A stretch of 64,000 nt of DNA, taken from assembly GCF_010993745.1 (NCBI RefSeq), contig NZ_WOTN01000001.1:871235-935234 (forward strand), written 5' to 3'. Below, in pieces: positions 26,480 through 36,311 of this stretch (positions within the stretch are counted from its first letter, which is position 1; each line of letters opens with the position of its first letter). Both the position numbers and the translations under genes were made by a program. The notes under the pieces were generated by a model. That model saw nothing but the letters and a program-made list of their open reading frames with translations. It had not been told where the DNA came from and ran no database searches. This stretch comes from Fodinicola acaciae (GTDB lineage Bacteria > Actinomycetota > Actinomycetes > Mycobacteriales > HKI-0501).

Positions 26480-26506
26480 CCATGCGTGCGTCTGACGCAC
26501 GTATGG
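26480..26506. repeat. Degenerate copy of a palindromic intergenic repeat
   Basis: The arms CATGCGTGCGTC and GACGCACGTATG flank a single T, with one mismatch, and GGCCATGCG follows. The core and the trailing GGCCATGCG match the perfect palindrome at 32202-32250. The outer part of the left arm is lost here. Confidence 0.7.
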
Positions 26507-26792: not shown

Positions 26793-27389
26793 ATGCGGCG
26801 TGTCCTGTTGTCGGGCCTACGAAGATTGGGCATCGGCCGCAGTCAGCTGCGCCGCCGCTCGGACCGTGTGGAGAGCATGTTCCTGCGGTGGGCCGTTCTT
26901 GGCGTAATCGTGGCGATTGTTTTGGCTCCATCGTTGGCGATCGACACCTATCAGCGAGAAATGCGTACGGTCGCGCAGCAGGCTGCGAGCCGCCACGAGG
27001 TGCAGGCGGTCGTCTTGCAGGACGCGCTGGCCAGTCCGAGCAGCGCCGAACCGTCGGGACTGACGCCGGCGCAGGCGCACGTACGGGGACAGTGGAAATC
27101 GCCGGACGGCGTCGTGCACACGGCCTCGATTGAGGTCGACAGTGGTACGAAGGCCGGCGCGCACGTGCCGATCTGGGTCGATCGCGCCGGACATCAGGTG
27201 TCGGCGCCGGAGACCGCCGGCGGTGCGCTGATCGGCGCGATTCTGGCGGCGCTGGGCGCGGTGATCGCGGTCGTCGCGTTGTTCATCGCGCTCTATTGGC
27301 TCGTACGCTGGCCGCTCGACCGCATCCGGCTGGCGCGCTGGGACGCCGAATGGCGCCGCGCCTCGGCTGACTGGGCCAGCCGCTCCTAG
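26793..27389 (+). CDS. Rv1733c-family transmembrane protein
   Basis: 198 residues from the ATG at 26793 (TGGAGTG ahead of it); ATG 26757 is an alternative. The order is Arg-rich cytoplasmic start, a helix (WAVLGVIVAIVLAPSLAI), an extracytoplasmic domain with GQWKSPDGVVHTASIEVDSG, TKAGAHVPIWVDRAGHQVS, and a second helix (GAILAALGAVIAVVALFIALYWLV). This copies mycobacterial Rv1733c, including the KxGxxVxIWVDxxGxxV signature and final Arg/Trp-rich tail. Rv1733c is a DosR-regulon membrane protein of unknown function. A DosR/DosS-like pair is present at the start of the window, although no DosR box was found upstream of this gene. Confidence 0.8.
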   Translation: MRRVLLSGLRRLGIGRSQLRRRSDRVESMFLRWAVLGVIVAIVLAPSLAIDTYQREMRTVAQQAASRHEVQAVVLQDALASPSSAEPSGLTPAQAHVRGQWKSPDGVVHTASIEVDSGTKAGAHVPIWVDRAGHQVSAPETAGGALIGAILAALGAVIAVVALFIALYWLVRWPLDRIRLARWDAEWRRASADWASRS

Positions 27390-27439
27390 CCTCGGGCTTT
27401 CATCTGTTGGCCGGTGACACGGCCTAGAAATGCACGGAA

Positions 27440-27503
27440 GTGCCTGTCCAGTGCGGGAAACTTGGGATTGCGACGTCTCAAGGGTCACTGCACTGGAAGG
27501 CAC
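27440..27503. promoter_or_regulatory. Long inverted repeat before the IS1380 transposase
   Basis: GTGCCTGTCCAGTGC at 27440-27454 pairs with GCACTGGAAGGCAC at 27490-27503, 14 pairs with one bulge, enclosing 35 bases. It ends seven bases before the GTG start. In RNA the right arm would cover the area just upstream of the transposase start, which has GGAAGG within the arm as its only ribosome-binding-like sequence. A role in limiting transposase translation is an inference. Confidence 0.45.
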
Positions 27504-27510
27504 TCCGTAG

Positions 27511-28911
27511 GTGAAGGTTAACAGGGTTGGCGGGTTGGTTCTGGATCCGGCTCGCGAGTCGTTGGTGTCCTCTGCTGGCGGACTGTTGTTACGGCAGACG
27601 ATCCGGTTGTCAGGTGTGCGGCGAGCGTTGTCGGTAGCCCTTGATCCGTGGCGTGGTCGCCGGGTCCGCCACGGTCCGGGGAAGATCGTTTGCGACCTGG
27701 CGACCGCGGTTGCGCTCGGCGGTGACTGTTTAGCGGATGTGAGCGTGGTCCGGGCGCAACCTGGACTGTTCGGGCCGGTGGCCAGCGATCCGACGATATC
27801 GCGGCTGGTCAGCACGTTGGCTGGCGATGTTGATGCTGTCCTGCCGGCGATCCGGTCCGCGCGGGCTCAGGCGCGGTGCGCGGTCTGGAAGCGGCGCCGG
27901 CCGTTGGCCGGCCGTGCGGGTAGTCGCGACGGCGGCCAAGTCATCATCGATCTGGACTCGACATTGGTGACCGCGCACTCGGACAAAGAACGTGCCTGCG
28001 CTACCCACAAACGCGGGTTCGGATTCGCGCCGATGTGCGCGTTCGTCGACCATGGCCAGTACGGGACCGGAGAAAGCCTGGTGCTGCAACTGCGTCCTGG
28101 CAACGCTTCACCGTGGAACAAGCAGGACCATGTCCAGGCTCTGGATCTGGCGCTGGCCCAGCTGCCCGAAGGCGAGCGCGCGCAGGTGTTGGTCCGTGCC
28201 GATTCCGGCGCGTGTTCCAAGGCGTTCCTGCATCACATCACCGATCTGGGGTTGGAGTATTCGATCGGATTCCCGGCCCATGAAACGGTCAAAGCCGCGA
28301 TGGAGGCTATCCCGCCGCAGGCCTGGAGACCGGCTGTTGACGGTGACGGCCAGCCGCGCGAGGGCGCGCAGGTCGCCGAGCTCACGCGATGGATGCCCGA
28401 CCCGACCCCGGCAACCCGACCCGGTCCTCAACAATGGCCAGCCGGGATGCGGGTGATCGCCCGCCGGGAACGACCACACCCCGGCGCGCAACTACGCCTC
28501 ACCGACCAGGACGGGTGGCGCATCACCTGCTTCGCCACCAACACCCACGGCCCCGGCTGGACACTGGACACACTGGAAGTACGCCACCGGCAACGAGCCC
28601 GTTGCGAGGACCGTATCCGCGCGCAGAAAGACACCGGCATGCGCAACCTGCCCTTCCACGGATACGCCCACAACCAGATCTGGCTGGAAATCGCCGCACT
28701 AGCGGCGGACTTGCTGGCCTGGACCCAAACCCTGGCCTGGGACACACACCAACCCGCCAGACGCTGGGAACCCAAACGCCTACGGCTACGCATCCTGGCC
28801 GTCGCCGGCCGCATCATCCACAGCGGCCGACGACGACGCCTACGACTACCCCGCAACTGGCCCTTCAACCACCTCATCGACAACGCCTGGAAATCCCTAC
28901 AACCCAGCTAA
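27511..28911 (+). CDS. IS1380-family DDE transposase
   Basis: 466 residues, full family length, with a GTG start. The catalytic acidic residues fall in QVIIDLDSTLV, LVRADSGACSKAFL and the late ARCEDRIRAQKDTGMRNLPF, and FLHHITDLGLEYSIGFPA and WLEIAALAADLLAWTQ are further family segments. No frameshift or stop interrupts it, so it may be active. The last third of the gene prefers A-containing codons (many ACC, CAA, AAC), unlike the host genes. Confidence 0.93.
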   Translation: MKVNRVGGLVLDPARESLVSSAGGLLLRQTIRLSGVRRALSVALDPWRGRRVRHGPGKIVCDLATAVALGGDCLADVSVVRAQPGLFGPVASDPTISRLVSTLAGDVDAVLPAIRSARAQARCAVWKRRRPLAGRAGSRDGGQVIIDLDSTLVTAHSDKERACATHKRGFGFAPMCAFVDHGQYGTGESLVLQLRPGNASPWNKQDHVQALDLALAQLPEGERAQVLVRADSGACSKAFLHHITDLGLEYSIGFPAHETVKAAMEAIPPQAWRPAVDGDGQPREGAQVAELTRWMPDPTPATRPGPQQWPAGMRVIARRERPHPGAQLRLTDQDGWRITCFATNTHGPGWTLDTLEVRHRQRARCEDRIRAQKDTGMRNLPFHGYAHNQIWLEIAALAADLLAWTQTLAWDTHQPARRWEPKRLRLRILAVAGRIIHSGRRRRLRLPRNWPFNHLIDNAWKSLQPS

Positions 28912-29048
28912 AAACGACGAACCAACCCCACAACCAGGACCGGAGAACCGGCGACACAGCGCCGGAAACCAGCCCTGCCACAAACAAACACACAGACCCC
29001 ACAACCAGCCAAACAGTCACTCAACTCCCACGCGAAAGATCGAGGCTA

Positions 29049-29224
29049 GGGTCTGTCTCCATATTCCGCGGGGCGATAGCCGAGCCGCTGTCACATCTTT
29101 CTCGGGCCGCCTGACGGCACGGCGAAACCGCCCATGTGGCGCTGCCACGCCGGGCGGCTCCGCCGCACCGCCAGACGACATTTGGATCTCGACTCTCATC
29201 CCCCCGGAATATGCAGACAGGCCC
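29049..29224. mobile_element. Small TA-flanked inverted-repeat element (MITE-like), copy 1
   Basis: 176 bases bounded by TA on both sides. The left end GGGTCTGTCTCCATATTCCG pairs with the right end (inverse GGGCCTGTCTGCATATTCCG), 18 of 20 matching. The inside encodes nothing. Reading from its right end, GGATGAGAGTC begins 23 bases in, exactly as in the element at 35201-35279. The right boundary falls in the recQ stop codon: the TAG is TA from the target plus the first G of the element. A non-autonomous transposon with TA target duplication (as in IS630/mariner-type elements) is the best reading. Confidence 0.7.
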
Positions 29225-31062
29225 TAAACCACCTCGGCCAACACGGCGAGGATCTGGTCGCCGTATTTCGCCAGCTTGTTCTCGCCGACACCGCTGATCG
29301 TGCCGAGCGCCTCCAGCGACGACGGCAGCTCGGTGGCGATCTGTTTCAGCGTGGCGTCGTGGAAGATGACGTACGCCGGCAGGCCGAGCTCGCGAGCGGT
29401 CTCGCCGCGCCAGCTCCGCAGCCGCTCGAAAATCGGCTCCGCCTCGGCGGTGAGCTCGATCGCCGCCTTGGCCTTCGCGGACGACTTGGCCGCCTTCGGC
29501 GCGCGCGTACGCTCCGGCTCGCGGCGCAGGCGCACCTGGCGCTGCTCGAACAACACCTGGTTGCTGCCTTCGGTGAGCACCAGCGTGCCGAAGTCGCCCT
29601 CGACGCCGAGCAACCCCTGCGCGAGCAACTGCCGTACGACCCCGCGCCACTCGGTGTCGCGCAGCTCGCTGCCTTTGCCGAAGACGGTGAGCTGGTCGTG
29701 CCGGTGCTGCCGCACCTTGTCGGTGGTCTTTCCGAGCAATATGTCGATAACCTGACCGGCGCCGAACTTCTGGCCGCGTTCCTTACGGAGCCGGAACACG
29801 GTCGAGAGCAGCTTCTGCGCGGCGATCGTGCCGTCCCAGGCCTCCGGCGGAGTCAGGCAGCTGTCACAGTTGCCGCAGTTTTCCTCCTGCGACTGGCCGA
29901 AGTAGGCGAGGAGCTGGCCGCGCCGGCACTCCACCGTCTCGCACAGCGCGAGCATCGCGTCGAGGTGGATGTTGAGCCGGCGGCGGTGCGCGTCGTCGCC
30001 TTCGGACTTGTCGATCAGCTGTCGCTGCTGCACCACGTCGGCCAGGCCGTACGCCAGCCAAGCGGTCGACGGCAGGCCGTCACGGCCGGCGCGACCGGTC
30101 TCCTGGTAATAACCCTCGACCGACTTGGGCAGGTCGAGGTGCGCGACGAACCGTACGTCCGGCTTGTCGATCCCCATCCCGAACGCGATGGTGGCGACCA
30201 TGACCAGGCCGTCCTCGCGGAGGAACCGCGCCTGGTTGGCCGCCCTCGTGCGGGAATCCAGGCCGGCGTGATAGGGCAGCGCCTCGATCCCGTTTTCCAC
30301 CAGGAAATCGGCGATCTTCTCCACCGACGCGCGGGACAGGCAGTAGACGATGCCGGCGTCGCCGGCATGCTCGGTCTGCAGCAGCTTGAGCAGCTGCCGC
30401 TTCGGCTCGTTTTTCGGCACGATCCGATACTGGATGTTGGGCCGGTCGAAGCTGGCCACGAAATGCCGCGCCTCGGTGAGGTTGAGCCGGTGCGCGATCT
30501 CCTCGCGGGTCGCGTCGGTCGCCGTCGCGGTCAGTGCGATCCGCGGCACGTCCGGCCAGCGCTCGTGCAGCGCGGACAGCTCCAGGTAATCCGGCCGGAA
30601 GTCGTGGCCCCACTGCGCCACACAGTGCGCCTCGTCGATGGCGAACAACGACACCTTGCCGCGGTCGAGCAGCCGCATGGTGGCCTCGACCCGCAACCGC
30701 TCCGGCGCCAGGTAGAGCAGGTCGAGCTCGCCGTCCAGGAAGGCCTCCTCGACCTCGCGGCGGGCGTAGGAATCCTGGGTGGAGTTGAGAAAACCGGCGC
30801 GTACGCCGACCGTACGCAGCGCGTCGACCTGGTCCTGCATCAGCGCGATGAGCGGCGAGATGACCACACCGGTGCCGGGCCGTACGAGCGCGGGGATCTG
30901 GTAACACAGCGACTTGCCGCCACCGGTCGGCATCAGCACGAGCGCGTCGCCGCCGCCGACCACGTGCTCGATGATGTCCTGCTGGTTGCCGCGGAACGCG
31001 TCGTATCCGAAGACGCGCTGCAGGACTTCGGTCGCTTCGCTGACTGTCCCGAGGCTTCCCAC
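29224..31062 (-). CDS. recQ: ATP-dependent DNA helicase RecQ
   Basis: 612 residues if started at GTG 31062; an ATG at 31131 and a frame start at 31164 are alternatives, the last reaching into the divergent gene's leader. Helicase motifs are complete: motif 0 [13 protein letters not shown], Walker [16 protein letters not shown] with [19 protein letters not shown]-type ALTATAT, motif [13 protein letters not shown] RecQ zinc site follows (CETVECRRG...CGNCDSC), then the winged-helix RQC region and a C-terminal HRDC domain ([26 protein letters not shown]). It unwinds DNA during recombination repair. Its stop codon abuts the MITE-like element. Confidence 0.93.
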
Positions 31063-31175
31063 CCGACGATCGTACGGTCCAGGGCCGACGATTCCGCGCG
31101 CGACGTGCGGAGCGGCGTCGGCTGTCCGCATCCACACCCTTGACCGGTGAGTCTTCTTACGCAACCGTGGTGCTT

Positions 31176-32201
31176 ATGAAGCTGGGATGGACGATGGGTT
31201 ACTGGGGTGCCGGGCCGGCGCCGGGGACCGACGAGGTGATCGACGAGGCTGACGCGCTCGGCCTGGACTCGATCTGGACCGCCGAAGCGTACGGGTCGGA
31301 CGCGCTGACTCCGCTGGCCTGGTATGGCGCGCGTACGACGACACCGCGGCTGGGCACCGGCATCATCCAGATGAGCGCGCGCACGCCGACCGCCACCGCG
31401 ATGGCGGCGATGACCCTCGACCACCTGTCCGGCGGCCGCGTCATCCTCGGCCTCGGCACCTCCGGTCCGCAGGTCGTGGAGGGGTGGTACGGCCAGGAGT
31501 ATGGCAAGCCGCTGGCGCGTACCCGCGAATACATCGACATCGTACGGAAAGTCGTCGCGCGCGAGAAGCTGACGCATGACGGCGCCTTCTACCGCGTGCC
31601 GATCGAGGGCGGCACCGGGCTCGGCAAGGCACTGCGCTCGACGATCCGGCCATACCGGACCGACATCCCGATCTTCCTTGGCGCGCAGGGACCCAAGAAC
31701 GTCGCTCTCGCGGCCGAGGTCGCCGACGGCTGGCTGACGCTCTTCTTCGGACCGAAGCTGAACGATTACTACAAGGACGTGTTGGCTGAGGGGTTCGCTC
31801 GTCCGGGCGCGCGGCACACCGCGGAGTCGTTCGAGGTCGCCGTGTCGGTGACCGCGGTGATCGACGACGACGTGGAGGCCGCCGCCGACCGGATCCGTCC
31901 GCTGCTGGCGCTCTACATCGGCGGCATGGGCGCGGTGGAGGCCAACTTTCACCGCAACATGTTCCTGCGGCTGGGATACGAGCAGGAGTGCGACAAGATC
32001 ACCGAGCTCTACCTGTCCGGCCGCAAGGAGGAGGCGATCGCGCAGGTGTCGACCGCGATGGTCGAGGAGGTCGCGCTGATCGGCCCGAAGGCCAAGATCG
32101 CCGACGACCTCGCGGCGTGGCAAGCGACCATCGCCACCAGCCTGGTGCTGATGGGCGCCGACCTGCCGACCCTGCGTACGCTCGCCGAGCTGCTCGGATG
32201 A
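31176..32201 (+). CDS. LLM-class F420-dependent oxidoreductase
   Basis: 341 residues from ATG 31176, which yields the family start MKLGWTMGYWGAG; the open frame from 31140 has no better signal. Luciferase-like features are GTGIIQMSARTPTATAMAA, LDHLSGGRVILGLGTSGPQVVEG with the G-rich flavin phosphate loop, FLGAQGPKNVALAAEVADGWL, and the C-terminal IGPKAKIADDLAAW. These TIM-barrel enzymes use deazaflavin F420 for hydride transfer; the particular substrate cannot be told. Divergent from recQ, with no obvious ribosome binding site. A perfect palindrome lies directly after its stop. Confidence 0.9.
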   Translation: MKLGWTMGYWGAGPAPGTDEVIDEADALGLDSIWTAEAYGSDALTPLAWYGARTTTPRLGTGIIQMSARTPTATAMAAMTLDHLSGGRVILGLGTSGPQVVEGWYGQEYGKPLARTREYIDIVRKVVAREKLTHDGAFYRVPIEGGTGLGKALRSTIRPYRTDIPIFLGAQGPKNVALAAEVADGWLTLFFGPKLNDYYKDVLAEGFARPGARHTAESFEVAVSVTAVIDDDVEAAADRIRPLLALYIGGMGAVEANFHRNMFLRLGYEQECDKITELYLSGRKEEAIAQVSTAMVEEVALIGPKAKIADDLAAWQATIATSLVLMGADLPTLRTLAELLG

Positions 32202-32250
32202 CCGCATGGCCACCATGCGTGCGTCTGACGCACGCATGGTGGCCATGCGG
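32202..32250. repeat. 49-base perfect palindrome after the LLM oxidoreductase gene
   Basis: Two 24-base arms match perfectly around a single T at 32226; the core reads CATGCGTGCGTC T GACGCACGCATG. It begins one base after the TGA at 32199-32201. There is no T-tract after it, so a simple rho-independent terminator is doubtful, although an RNA hairpin of this size may still stop transcription or protect the 3' end. A degenerate second copy lies at 26480-26506, so it is a dispersed repeat. Confidence 0.8.
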
Positions 32251-32339: not shown

Positions 32340-35201
32340 GTGGGCTTGCGCCGAGCGTACTGGTGGGTTGCTGGCTGTGTGGCGGTCGTTCTGGCCGCGA
32401 CTGTCGGGACGGTGATCCTCACGATCAACCTGTCGACCGGCGGCCCGCGGCCGTCGATCGTGCTGAAGAAGATCACCGACAAGGACGAACGCGACCGGTT
32501 CAACGCCGCCCGCGAGATGGTCGAGAAGCTGGTCGCCGGTGACGTGTCGGCGCTGCTGCCGGGGGTGAGTCTCGACCTGAGCAAGCTGCTGCCGACCGGG
32601 GCCAAGCTCGTCCTGGAAGCGGCGAGCTGGAAACGCGCCGGCCGCGGCGCGACCGTCGACGGCAAGGTCGGCGACCGGCGCGTACGCGTGATCCTGGTGG
32701 TCACCGACGACGGCTGGCGCGTCGTCGACGTACGACCGCCAACCGACACACCGCCGCAGCAGCCGGAGCCGCATCCGAGTACGTCGCCATCGCCGCAGCC
32801 GAGCAACACGCCTGGTCCGAAGGCGATGCTGACGACCTCGCAGTGTGCCGGCGTACAGGTCGCGCGCGGCGCCAAAGCCGGCCCCATCCCGGTGCTGTTG
32901 GTGCCAGGTCCGGACGGAGTCGCCGGCCTGACCGCCTCGGTTGGTACGGCCGCGGTCGCCGGAGCGACGCCGGTGGCCACCAGCCTGGTCAGCCGCTTCG
33001 CCGAGATCCCCGGCGTGACCGCGTACGTGCTGGCCAAGGGCGACGGCAGTCACTGGGTCGGCGACCGCGACGCCACTGGTCCGGCCGTCGCCGACGCCAT
33101 CGACTGCCTCCACAAGGGCGGCCAGAAGGTGGCTGTCGTCGGTGTGTCGACCGGCGGCCTGGCGGTGAGGTGGGCCCTCACCGGTGACCGCGCCAAGGCG
33201 GTCGGCATGGTCGCGACGATCGGCAGTCCGTTCGGCGGCGCGTACGCCGTGGACGTCGCGCGCGTACTCAAGGACGACGACCCTGGCTCGCTGCCGAAGA
33301 CCGACGCCGCGCAGGCTCGCCGCGACAGCCTCGTTCTCGAGACAGCGATGGCCGACCTCGCGGTCTGCCCGAACGCCGGTGGTCCCAAACAGCACACCGA
33401 GCCGGCCTGCCGCCGCCTCGACACGCTCGCGGCGCTGGCCGGCGGCCTCGGTGACTCGCTGCGGCCGAACGCGGTCGGGTCGCTGCCGGCGTGGCCGTCC
33501 GGCCTGCCGGTGCTGCAGATCGCCGGCACCGCACGCGTTGGTCAGATCGACGTCGGTGACGGCATCGCGACCACAGCGTCGGCGCTGGCCGACGCGAGCC
33601 GCAAGGCGACGCACACCTGCCTCGACACCAAGGTCGTCGCGAGCGCACCGGCCCGTTGCTGGAACAGCGACCTCGCAGTGCTGACCGAGGCTGCGGACGA
33701 CGCCGTCGGTGCGGTGCGCGCGTTCGTACATCCGACCGCGGCGGCATTCGTCGACAAGAACACCGCCAGCGTCATCGAGAACGGCAAGGTCGGAGCGAGC
33801 ATCACGGCCACCAGGTACGGCTTCAGCAAGGCCGCGTTCAGCGCCGACGGCCGCTATCTGGTCGCGGTCGGCTCCGGCGAGATCGGTGTGCTCGACGTCG
33901 ACACGGGCGCGCACCGGTCGGCCGCCTGCGACTGCGGCGAGATGGCGGTCGTCGGCCGCCAGGCGTACGTGGCCAACGGCTATTCGTCCCGCACGATCAA
34001 CGCGTACGAGCTGCCTGACCTGCGGCCGCGGCCGAGCGGCTTGGGCGAGTTCGGCAAGCCGGGATCGTTCGCCGGCCCGAAGGCGGCCTACGGCGAGCAG
34101 CTGATCGTCGCCATCCTGGAGGACGCCGGCGCCAGCAACGGCACGCCGTCGCTGGTGGCGGTCGGACCCGGCGGCGCGCGCTCCAAGGTCGTCAAGCTGC
34201 CGGAGCCGTCGGTGCCGCTGGACGTGACCGCCGACCCGTACGACCCGACCGGACCGGTGATCGCGCTGACCAGCTCGCACGTGTCGGCCTGCAGCTTCTT
34301 CGGCAAGGCCTCGATCGTGAACTTCACCGCGGGCACACGGAAAGACGTCGACGGCAAGGCCTTCGGCGAGTCGGCTCCGGACACCGAGTCGATCGACATC
34401 GCCGACGTGCATCGCGGTGGCGACGGCCGCTATTACGCGGCTGCGCACGCCGGTTCGTGCGACGACAGCCTCAACCCGACCGAGACCGTGCCGTGGAGCC
34501 TGTGGCGGCTCGACGGCACGCGATGGGCGAGCGTGGACGGCGGCGTCAAAGGCCCGGACCGCTACTTCGGACCGGCCGGCCGGCTCAGTGTCACACTGAC
34601 CTCCAGCACCGACGGCACACTGACCTGGAAGCACGGCTCGGATTCGCAGTCGTACGGCAAAAACGTGACGGCGATCGCCTCGCCGCCGGGGTCGGCGATC
34701 GTCACCGACCCGTCGCTCGCGCCGCCGGCCGGCAGCAAGGTCACGCCGCCGAAGCCGCTGCTGGCCAGCCCGGACGGCTTCGGGCCGCTGCGGATCGGCG
34801 CGCCGTTGGACAAGCTGGTGGCCGACGGCCTGCTGAAGAACGACAAGCCGGCTGGCACACCCGGCTGCCTCGCCTACTCGGGCGCCGGCCGGCTGAAAGG
34901 CCTCGTCTACGTGCAGCAGCAGGGCGGCTCGACCCTGCAGGCCGTGAGCGTCAGCTCGGCGAAGTTCGGCACCGACGCCGGCCTGCCGCCGAACGCGACT
35001 CTCGACCAGGTGAAAAAGGCCTACGGCTCAGCGTTGCACACCGAGCGCGTGCTCAAGCAGAACGAGCCGGTGATCCATTACTACGTCGCGAAGGGCCCGA
35101 ACATCCTGCTTTTCCAGGTTTACCAAGACAAAGTAGGCGGCTATCTGATCGGCGAGAAGAGCGCGGTGGACTTCTACGCGAGCCTTGGCGGGCTCTGCTA
35201 G
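32340..35201 (+). CDS. Membrane-anchored protein with alpha/beta-hydrolase and beta-propeller-like regions
   Basis: 953 residues. One N-terminal membrane helix (WWVAGCVAVVLAATVGTVIL) is followed by a small lipoprotein-like alpha+beta domain to about 135, a Pro/Ser/Thr linker, an alpha/beta-hydrolase-like region (about 155-450) with nucleophile motif VVGVSTGGLAVRWAL, a WD/PQQ-like repeat region (FSADGRYLVAVGSGEIGVLDV, about 485-800) and a C-terminal domain with FGPLRIGAPLDKLVADGLL found in secreted actinobacterial proteins. GTG 32340 has AGGAGG only three bases away, while TTG 32346 has nine, so the latter may be the real start. Role unknown; an outer-face esterase or lipase with a binding propeller is possible. 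Its TAG stop is formed at the border of a MITE-like element. Confidence 0.7.
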   Translation: MGLRRAYWWVAGCVAVVLAATVGTVILTINLSTGGPRPSIVLKKITDKDERDRFNAAREMVEKLVAGDVSALLPGVSLDLSKLLPTGAKLVLEAASWKRAGRGATVDGKVGDRRVRVILVVTDDGWRVVDVRPPTDTPPQQPEPHPSTSPSPQPSNTPGPKAMLTTSQCAGVQVARGAKAGPIPVLLVPGPDGVAGLTASVGTAAVAGATPVATSLVSRFAEIPGVTAYVLAKGDGSHWVGDRDATGPAVADAIDCLHKGGQKVAVVGVSTGGLAVRWALTGDRAKAVGMVATIGSPFGGAYAVDVARVLKDDDPGSLPKTDAAQARRDSLVLETAMADLAVCPNAGGPKQHTEPACRRLDTLAALAGGLGDSLRPNAVGSLPAWPSGLPVLQIAGTARVGQIDVGDGIATTASALADASRKATHTCLDTKVVASAPARCWNSDLAVLTEAADDAVGAVRAFVHPTAAAFVDKNTASVIENGKVGASITATRYGFSKAAFSADGRYLVAVGSGEIGVLDVDTGAHRSAACDCGEMAVVGRQAYVANGYSSRTINAYELPDLRPRPSGLGEFGKPGSFAGPKAAYGEQLIVAILEDAGASNGTPSLVAVGPGGARSKVVKLPEPSVPLDVTADPYDPTGPVIALTSSHVSACSFFGKASIVNFTAGTRKDVDGKAFGESAPDTESIDIADVHRGGDGRYYAAAHAGSCDDSLNPTETVPWSLWRLDGTRWASVDGGVKGPDRYFGPAGRLSVTLTSSTDGTLTWKHGSDSQSYGKNVTAIASPPGSAIVTDPSLAPPAGSKVTPPKPLLASPDGFGPLRIGAPLDKLVADGLLKNDKPAGTPGCLAYSGAGRLKGLVYVQQQGGSTLQAVSVSSAKFGTDAGLPPNATLDQVKKAYGSALHTERVLKQNEPVIHYYVAKGPNILLFQVYQDKVGGYLIGEKSAVDFYASLGGLC

Positions 35202-35279
35202 GGCCTGTATCGGAGTCCCACGTGGATGAGAGTCGGCGTTTGGGGTCGGCTGTCGCCGCGTGGGACTTCGAAACAGACC
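35201..35279. mobile_element. Small TA-flanked inverted-repeat element (MITE-like), copy 2
   Basis: 79 bases between TA dinucleotides at 35199-35200 and 35280-35281. Ends GGGCCTGTATCGGAGTCCCA and the inverse of the other end, GGTCTGTTTCGAAGTCCCA, match apart from a few changes and one base of length. The box GGATGAGAGTC starts 23 bases from the left end, as in the 176-base copy. Both flanking genes converge on it, and each has its TAG stop completed by the element's terminal G, so it sits inside what was probably one shared CTAG. Confidence 0.7.
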
Positions 35280-35785
35280 TAGCGCGGTTGCCTGGCGAAC
35301 CGTTCGCGTATGTCCGGACGATTCGCCAGCTTTTCCGGATATCCGGGGCCGATCCGAAACCGTACGTCGTCAGAGGCCAGCTTTTCGCCGCATCGCTCGC
35401 ACACCACCAAGGCATGGGTGTCGTGGCCGCACCGCTGGTGATGGAAGGTGATCGGCGAGGTTTCGCTGTCGTAGAGCCAACGGTCGCCCCATGCGGCCAT
35501 CGCCGCGAGCACCGAGAAGAAGTCCTTGCCCTTGGCGGTCAGCCGGTATTCGTGTCGCACCGGCTCGCTCTGATAGCGCACCTTTTCCAGCAGTCCCTCG
35601 GAAACCAGCCGGCTGAGCCGCTCGGCCAGGGTGTTGCGGGCGATGCCGAGCGCCGACTGGAACTCGTCGAACCGGCTGATGCCATAGAACGCCTCGCGCA
35701 GCACCAGGGGCGTCCACCAGTCGCCGAGCATGTCGACGGTCGTGGCGATCTGGCACGGCCAGTTGGCGAACGACGTGCGTCTCAT
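35279..35785 (-). CDS. HxlR-family regulator with C-terminal cysteine motif
   Basis: 168 residues from ATG 35785 (MRRTSFANWPCQIATTVDML), preferred over a frame start at 35839 because it gives the usual HxlR N-terminus with its conserved Cys. The winged helix is LVLREAFYGISRFDEFQSAL through SEGLLEKVRYQSEPVRHEYRLT. The C-terminal extension has CGHDTHALVVCERCGEKL, a possible metal or redox site seen in a longer HxlR subgroup. The inverted repeat CTCAGT...ACTGAG just upstream is a candidate operator. Target genes are not evident; it converges on the large hydrolase/propeller gene. Confidence 0.85.
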   Translation of the reverse strand: MRRTSFANWPCQIATTVDMLGDWWTPLVLREAFYGISRFDEFQSALGIARNTLAERLSRLVSEGLLEKVRYQSEPVRHEYRLTAKGKDFFSVLAAMAAWGDRWLYDSETSPITFHHQRCGHDTHALVVCERCGEKLASDDVRFRIGPGYPEKLANRPDIRERFARQPR

Positions 35786-35797
35786 GCTGCCAGCATA

Positions 35798-35820
35798 CTC
35801 AGTTGCGTTATGAGACTGAG
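35798..35820. promoter_or_regulatory. Inverted repeat upstream of the HxlR regulator
   Basis: CTCAGT at 35798-35803 and ACTGAG at 35815-35820 are perfect inverse arms 11 bases apart, 13 bases before the regulator's ATG. The right arm lies in the last codons of the Lrp-type gene. Self-binding by the HxlR protein is inferred. Confidence 0.45.
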
Positions 35821-36311
35821 CTGTCCGCGGGCTCGTCACAGAGGCGGCGGAGCAACGGCGAGATGCGATAGTCGACCAGCTCGCGCATCACCAGCGCCGT
35901 ACTCGTCCGCTCGACACCGGGGATCGCCAGGATCTCGCCGGCGACCCGATAGAGGTCGTCGCCGTCGGTGGCCACCACCTGCACCATCAGGTCGGTCTGG
36001 CCGCTGATGCCCTGCACCTGCAACACTTCCGGGATCTGCGCGAGCGCCGCGCCGACCTCGTCCAGCCGGCGCTGGGTGACCTGCGTCGTCACGTACGCGC
36101 TGAGCGGATATCCGAGCGTACGCGGCGCGATCCGGCGCTCGAACGACTCCAGCAGCCCGTCGCGTTCCAGGCGCGACAGCCGAGCCTGCACGGTGTTGCG
36201 GGACATGCCGAGCCGCTCGGCGAGCGCGATCGTGGTGGCGCGCGGCTGGTCGGTGAGCGCGCGCAGCAGCCGCGCGTCGGTCTGGTCGAGGCGATCAGGG
36301 TTGTGCACCAT
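35808..36311 (-). CDS. Lrp/AsnC-family transcriptional regulator
   Basis: 167 residues from ATG 36311, which has TGGAGTG in front; GTG 36317 would put the Shine-Dalgarno directly on the start. The N-terminal helix-turn-helix is LDQTDARLLRALTDQPRATT...LAERLGMSRNTVQARLSRLE, and the RAM effector-binding domain begins near residue 75 (YVTTQVTQRRLDEVGAALAQ) with the GxxDLMVQVVA-type strand GQTDLMVQVVATDGDD. It is divergent from an E1-type alpha-keto acid dehydrogenase, the classic arrangement for an amino-acid- or keto-acid-sensing Lrp regulator and its target. Repeated TTGTGC motifs fill the gap between them. Confidence 0.88.
   Translation of the reverse strand: MVHNPDRLDQTDARLLRALTDQPRATTIALAERLGMSRNTVQARLSRLERDGLLESFERRIAPRTLGYPLSAYVTTQVTQRRLDEVGAALAQIPEVLQVQGISGQTDLMVQVVATDGDDLYRVAGEILAIPGVERTSTALVMRELVDYRISPLLRRLCDEPADSSVS

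Follow-up and report, generated by a model that had tools for sequence, protein, structure and literature searches.

A 79-bp hairpin between two convergent stop codons in Fodinicola acaciae belongs, as a deletion derivative, to a non-autonomous, MITE-type family

In the window analyzed here, a 64,000-nucleotide stretch of the Fodinicola acaciae genome, a plus-strand and a minus-strand gene converge on a 79-bp hairpin that supplies the G of the TAG stop on both sides, as the first-pass annotation had described. This raises the question of what the hairpin is and how it came to lie exactly between the 2 stops. The junction reads T35199 A35200, G35201...C35279, T35280 A35281, that is, an element framed by TA on either side, and taking out the 79 bp leaves a single CTAG common to both convergent stops (Table 1). 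The predicted fold of the element has −56.8 kcal/mol (z −8.8) on the plus strand and −37.6 kcal/mol on the minus strand. Pfam confirms the minus-strand gene as HxlR (E 1e-21), while the label of "hydrolase/propeller" initially given to the plus-strand gene was not borne out, with no match at E 0.001. A search for relatives of its 953-aa product returned none, and no counterpart of the gene turned up next to HxlR in F. feengrottensis.

Table 1. Positions of the element, its 2 host genes and nearby repeats within the window.
Feature	Position	Strand	Remarks
Inverted-repeat element, 79-bp short form, type A ends	35201..35279	+	core strand = +
Left TA target duplication	35199..35200	.	first two bases of TAG of the + gene
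Right TA target duplication	35280..35281	.	with C35279, TAG of the − gene
Left terminal inverted repeat	35201..35223	+	
Right terminal inverted repeat	35257..35279	+	
GGATGAGAGTC box	35224..35234	+	left arm of the conserved core; GAGATCC bulged-base part absent from short form
Plus-strand ORF	32340..35201	+	TAG completed by first element base, G35201; no Pfam match
HxlR-type regulator gene	35279..35839	−	TAG completed by complement of last element base, C35279
Full-length 176-bp copy, type B ends	29049..29224	−	core strand = −; TA at 29047-29048 and 29225-29226
recQ	29224-31164		adjoins the 29049 copy
1656-bp IS, PF13701 DDE transposase	27390..29045	+	CTAG duplication at 27386-27389 and 29046-29049, at the border of the 29049 copy

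F. acaciae carries a non-autonomous, MITE-type family of such elements, of which the 35199 copy is a deleted form. Since the element region has 84 matches within its own genome and the end pattern, allowing at most 2 mismatches, has 106 matches versus 1 for the reversed pattern, the family is not due to chance. We delimited 100 full-length copies of 156-182 bp with TA on both sides. In a set of 114 delimited elements, the T..A edges are identical left and right in 108, a count to be read knowing that TA or TNA at each end defined the set and that a T..A edge was demanded by the script. Many of the counted elements were gathered with a covariance model, and in a 75-locus set the 59 with acceptable boundaries were kept and 16 were dropped. 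The delimited elements (22-182 bp) are non-coding, their arms pair inward from the termini, and the copies are dispersed and carry a target-site duplication, all of which are MITE features. Eight short forms of about 80 bp have A or B ends and are without the GAGATCC part (the window copy at 35199, L009, L010, L011, L015, L025, L073, and L084), and a core-less 22-bp palindrome consists of 2 element tips inside CTAG (L057:3865-3890), which suggests that insertion may be possible without the core. The idea that the hairpin is native intergenic DNA and was never inserted would fit the lack of an empty site at the 35199 junction, but it is hardly credible in the face of dozens of dispersed TA-flanked copies and of an orthologue at another locus that ends in CTAG and has no element.

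The first-pass annotation had proposed that the element arose by inserting at the central TA of a shared CTAG, and this is supported by its match to the rule of the family: among the sites reconstructed for the 114 elements, 65 are CTAG, 13 TTAG, 9 CTAA, 4 TTAA, 15 TNA, and 8 other. With gene stops called using codon usage from Fodinicola DNA alone, 65/114 elements coincide exactly with the stop codon that closes a coding frame, and 18/114 with convergent stops of both strands. The remaining CTAG sites of these flanks, a control that may take in borders of other repeats, are stops in 26/76 and double stops in 4/76 cases (Fisher p 0.003 for stops and 0.036 for double stops), and an earlier CTAG control gave 14/36 and 0/36. 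CTAG is thus frequently a stop anyway, and the double-stop excess is modest. A control based on all TA sites was dropped as it counted tyrosine codons as stops. The gene flanks of the 114 elements converge in 38 cases versus 5 that diverge. No interrupted genes were seen among an earlier set of 62 elements; a type F copy lies within a NUDIX gene that is broken with a deletion (L177 273). The elements of L149-L161 and L205-L217 have ends GAGCCTGTTGG, GAGACTGTTGG, or GAGGTCGC and are flanked by TGA or TAA; their TNA target can be a stop codon in its own right.

An element near C2:~564380 of genome G000 splits the TAG of a gene (...GCGAGC-TA-element), and the F. feengrottensis orthologue of this gene ends in ...TTCCTAGACG with no element and with CTAG as its stop, a comparison that is one-sided in that the upstream gene aligns and the downstream flank does not. 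Empty sites comparable on both sides were sought and none was found: the orthologue at L177 4806 ends differently, and the flanks of both L178 sites are not comparable. At the recQ junction of the 29049 copy, the genes of the orthologous pair overlap and have neither an element nor CTAG between them. The location at gene ends, and at convergent ones, could also be explained if the host retained the hairpin as a mobile signal, be it a transcription terminator, an insulator, or a site of RNase III processing, for which ERIC and NEMIS offer precedents (PMC2229807). The orthologous recQ junction without an element argues against this, as does the orientation of the core relative to the gene that stops there, which is near even (26 sense-only and 21 antisense-only, p 0.56) and on the ground of which we rejected a role in the host 3′-UTR as the main force.

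Comparison of the 2 copies in the window shows how the ends and the core behave separately. The GGATGAGAGTC box follows after 23 bases in both the 35199 copy and the 29049 copy, the latter read on the minus strand, just as had been noted at the outset. The end sequence that the 2 copies were said to share holds for the outermost 8 bases (GGGCCTGT) but differs further in, where the left end at 35199 follows the type A consensus GGGYCTGTTTCGAAGTCCCACG and that at 29049 is of type B, GGGYCTGTCTCCATATTCCGGG, and in each type the left end is paired by its own right end. In total we distinguished 7 end types in F. acaciae, with 4 unlabelled among its 53 delimited copies, and 6 in F. feengrottensis (34 copies). 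Of 493 full-length pairs whose cores reach 85% identity, 41 have both 20-base ends at most 60% identical, with a background identity of random 20-mers of mean 0.59 as drawn from a GC-rich toy alphabet. One core common to many unrelated end types amounts to end swapping. Hybrid ends also occur, with a left B and a right A end in L034/L131 and a left D and a right E end in L126, and these look like recombination intermediates.

IS5 groups duplicate TA or TNA at their target, and the TA or TNA duplications of the elements at CTAG-like targets are of this type. We infer that an IS5-family transposase probably moved the element. An IS with matching ends had been suggested as its mobilizer, and the genome does contain TA-flanked IS whose ends are related, but none that is identical over the whole end. 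There are 10 DUF4096 loci, 8 of them above the cut-off, and several have TA-flanked paired ends: L095 has GGGCGTGTTTCC/GGCCGTGTTTCT, L104 has GGGCGTGTCTCC, and L101 has GGGCCTGTTTCAAGTC at one end. Over the outer 12 bases, L101 agrees with type A at 11/12 and L104 with type D at 12/12. The L095 protein matches Pfam DDE_Tnp_1 and DDE_Tnp_1_2, L104 matches the same 2 below cut-off only, the L101 fragment has no Pfam match, and the reading frames of L101 and L104 look degraded. The hairpin elements are like the IS5-family IS of this genome (DUF4096 with DDE_Tnp_1) in their TA flanks within CTAG and in 11 to 12 of the 12 outer bases (types A and D), and unlike them in that they encode no transposase. 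The core model gave only a weak match in the 10 DUF4096 loci (E 0.013, L103). We also considered an IS630-type partner and rejected it, as the 3 PF13358 loci of the genome are without paired matching ends.

The stem of the element is polarized by strand. When arms were paired with an equal penalty for G.T and A.C and copies were oriented by the core motif, the 100 full-length copies had 1021 G.T versus 67 A.C pairs, with G.T ahead in 100/100. Split by region, the ratio is 168:15 for the ends, 366:27 for the motif block, and 487:25 for the central stem. The bias also holds for 7/7 representatives below 70% identity (79:2 in total). As a control, 12 other hairpin windows, taken from fetched DNA and including 2 in the f33 locus L279, gave 27:10 for the larger versus the smaller class where 26.3:10.7 was expected, on small numbers. 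In 8 clusters of close copies, the ratio of G.T to A.C is 41:36 for private changes, 33:9 for shared changes, and 84:2 for consensus pairs, and 2 tighter thresholds gave 37:32 and 34:24 for private and 24:6 and 18:2 for shared changes. Since the private changes are unpolarized, mutation is not the likely source of the bias and selection at resident sites is weak. The gradient from private through shared to consensus appears instead to reflect a filter between copies, that is, on propagation. From these ratios we infer that selection has probably acted on one folded strand, either RNA or single-stranded DNA, during propagation and not at resident sites.

This gradient also bears on 3 other explanations. 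If transcription-coupled change or deamination of one strand had left a mutational footprint, C to T and A to G changes on that strand would yield G.T pairs; this is very unlikely, since the private changes are unpolarized, their bases run in the direction opposite to that required (61 G to A or T to C versus 42 C to T or A to G), and orientation to genes is near even. Retention for the host would likewise not predict resident copies with unpolarized private changes, nor is wobble polarity expected from a bidirectional terminator, and we regard a host function as improbable. MITEs are usually thought to require their ends only, and an ordinary MITE, in which the ends alone matter, the interior is a passive palindrome, and the location at CTAG and stops reflects target choice and survival, would account for the TA target, the ends resembling those of local IS5-type IS, the deletion derivatives together with the 22-bp core-less form, the covariation that is trivial in a palindrome, and the fact that other CTAG sites are also stops in 26/76 cases. 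It does not predict an excess of G.T over A.C on one strand in 100/100 copies, the private/shared/consensus gradient, or a constant core with changing ends, and the 12 other hairpin windows are unpolarized as a group, small as those numbers are. We consider it a somewhat unlikely explanation.

Both sides of 44/55 stem pairs change among 27 diverse copies, and the covariation score is 0.645 versus 0.226 when shuffled and at most 0.123 when slid. One of the alignments used, A3, was fitted to the model and contains one antisense row (L145). Since arm-to-arm copying keeps a DNA palindrome symmetric and would by itself produce covariation, the claim of a selected fold rests on polarity. The core contains a near-invariant bulged base, usually A, with GATCC in 90/100 left arms. 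The bulged base is followed by U.G, C-G, and C-G, the U.G being present in 26/27 copies, and tandem U.G/G.U pairs occur in 19 and 24 of the 27. Such a strand-specific fold with conserved bulges is characteristic of structured RNA, and a fold of single-stranded DNA would look alike. No Rfam family matched the window at gathering score; the only Rfam match in L191, L238, L220, L208, L159, and L177 was a ribosomal leader away from the element, and L132, L016, L044, and L118 gave only miRNA models far below the cut-off.

Taken together, we think it probable that the element is an IS5-type MITE inserted in CTAG with interchangeable ends, whose propagation needs a folded core strand. A non-autonomous IS5-type hairpin would enter the central TA of the CTAG common to 2 convergent TAG stops, and the insertion would duplicate TA and restore the lost G on each side. 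Since the G is given back on both sides, both proteins would be unchanged. New ends would be gained, probably, by recombination within the common core, yielding hybrids, after which one arm would be copied onto the other. One core strand would form a long hairpin, rich in wobble pairs and with its bulges conserved, as RNA or as single-stranded DNA, and would be needed in this form at propagation, such that A.C-bearing lineages die out while resident copies decay freely. A bolder version, which we advance tentatively as a serious possibility, is that a mobile module of structured RNA or folded single-strand DNA rides several IS5-type transposases via end exchange and that its spread depends on the fold. 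We know of no MITE whose propagation depends on the fold of one core strand.

The element is part of a large hairpin family in soil actinobacteria. A core covariance model built from 15 copies finds 97 matches in the F. acaciae genome and 89 in that of F. feengrottensis, with some copies counted on both strands, and no match in G002, a genome of the same family as Fodinicola. In a 150-genome draw of the order, the core model also matches 9/148 others, 8 of them in family f14; the ninth (G044, locus L196) is unlike the f14 ones, and totals pooling it with f14 were not used. A second model, run against 394 genomes of the class at E 1e-8, matched 8 genomes: F. acaciae, G015, and 6 genomes of one genus (g74) in f33, which belongs to another order. 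The 13 f33 hairpins (loci L278-L292) have TAG-type tips on both sides in 8/13 cases and are wobble-polarized on the model-chosen strand in 13/13. Their homology is uncertain since the GATCC bulge motif is not evident in them.

A literature search, in which coverage of subscription journals was thin, returned no description of this hairpin family. End swapping, strand polarity, and recurrence in another family of the order take it beyond an ordinary MITE. The TA-targeting MITEs ERIC/RU-1, Correia (NEMIS), and RUP are 100-200 bp long with terminal TA, and their transcripts would fold as long stem loops (PMC2229807). The Fodinicola elements resemble these in size, in terminal TA, and in the long stem-loop fold, and differ from them, as described there, in that one core bears many unrelated ends, in that most targets are CTAG or TNA stops, and in that private and shared changes are unequal in wobble polarity.

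The passage from unpolarized fresh mutations to near-perfectly polarized fixed ones is a population-genetic sign that the interior fold of one strand matters for amplification. If so, a single-stranded intermediate or an element-borne RNA would help to spread what is apparently a plain DNA transposon, and end swapping would explain how one core outlives a given transposase. By targeting stop codons and bearing a terminal G on either side, a parasite can enter gene-dense genomes with genes unbroken, and such stop-codon-preserving insertion would keep the module harmless there.

The borders of the hairpin elements are themselves the site of further insertions. Seven copies of the PF13701 IS have intact ends and are flanked by CTAG duplications, or TTAG in one; 5 of these 7 adjoin a hairpin element and 1 adjoins a DUF4096 IS, so the borders seem to serve as landing sites. 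REP palindromes have been described as IS targets (PMC1525189), and the hairpin elements are like them in that this second IS inserts at their border in 5/7 copies, and unlike them in that it lands in the CTAG (once TTAG) at the border and not in the hairpin. The window also contains a perfect 49-bp palindrome of a different repeat family at 32202-32250, immediately 3′ of the TGA of ORF 31140-32201, which has at least 10 matches in F. feengrottensis and a relative near 26480. Another short palindrome, approximately CCCGA(C/G)TCGGGACAC, adjoins several of the elements (in the flanks of L035, L037, L041, L076, and L085).
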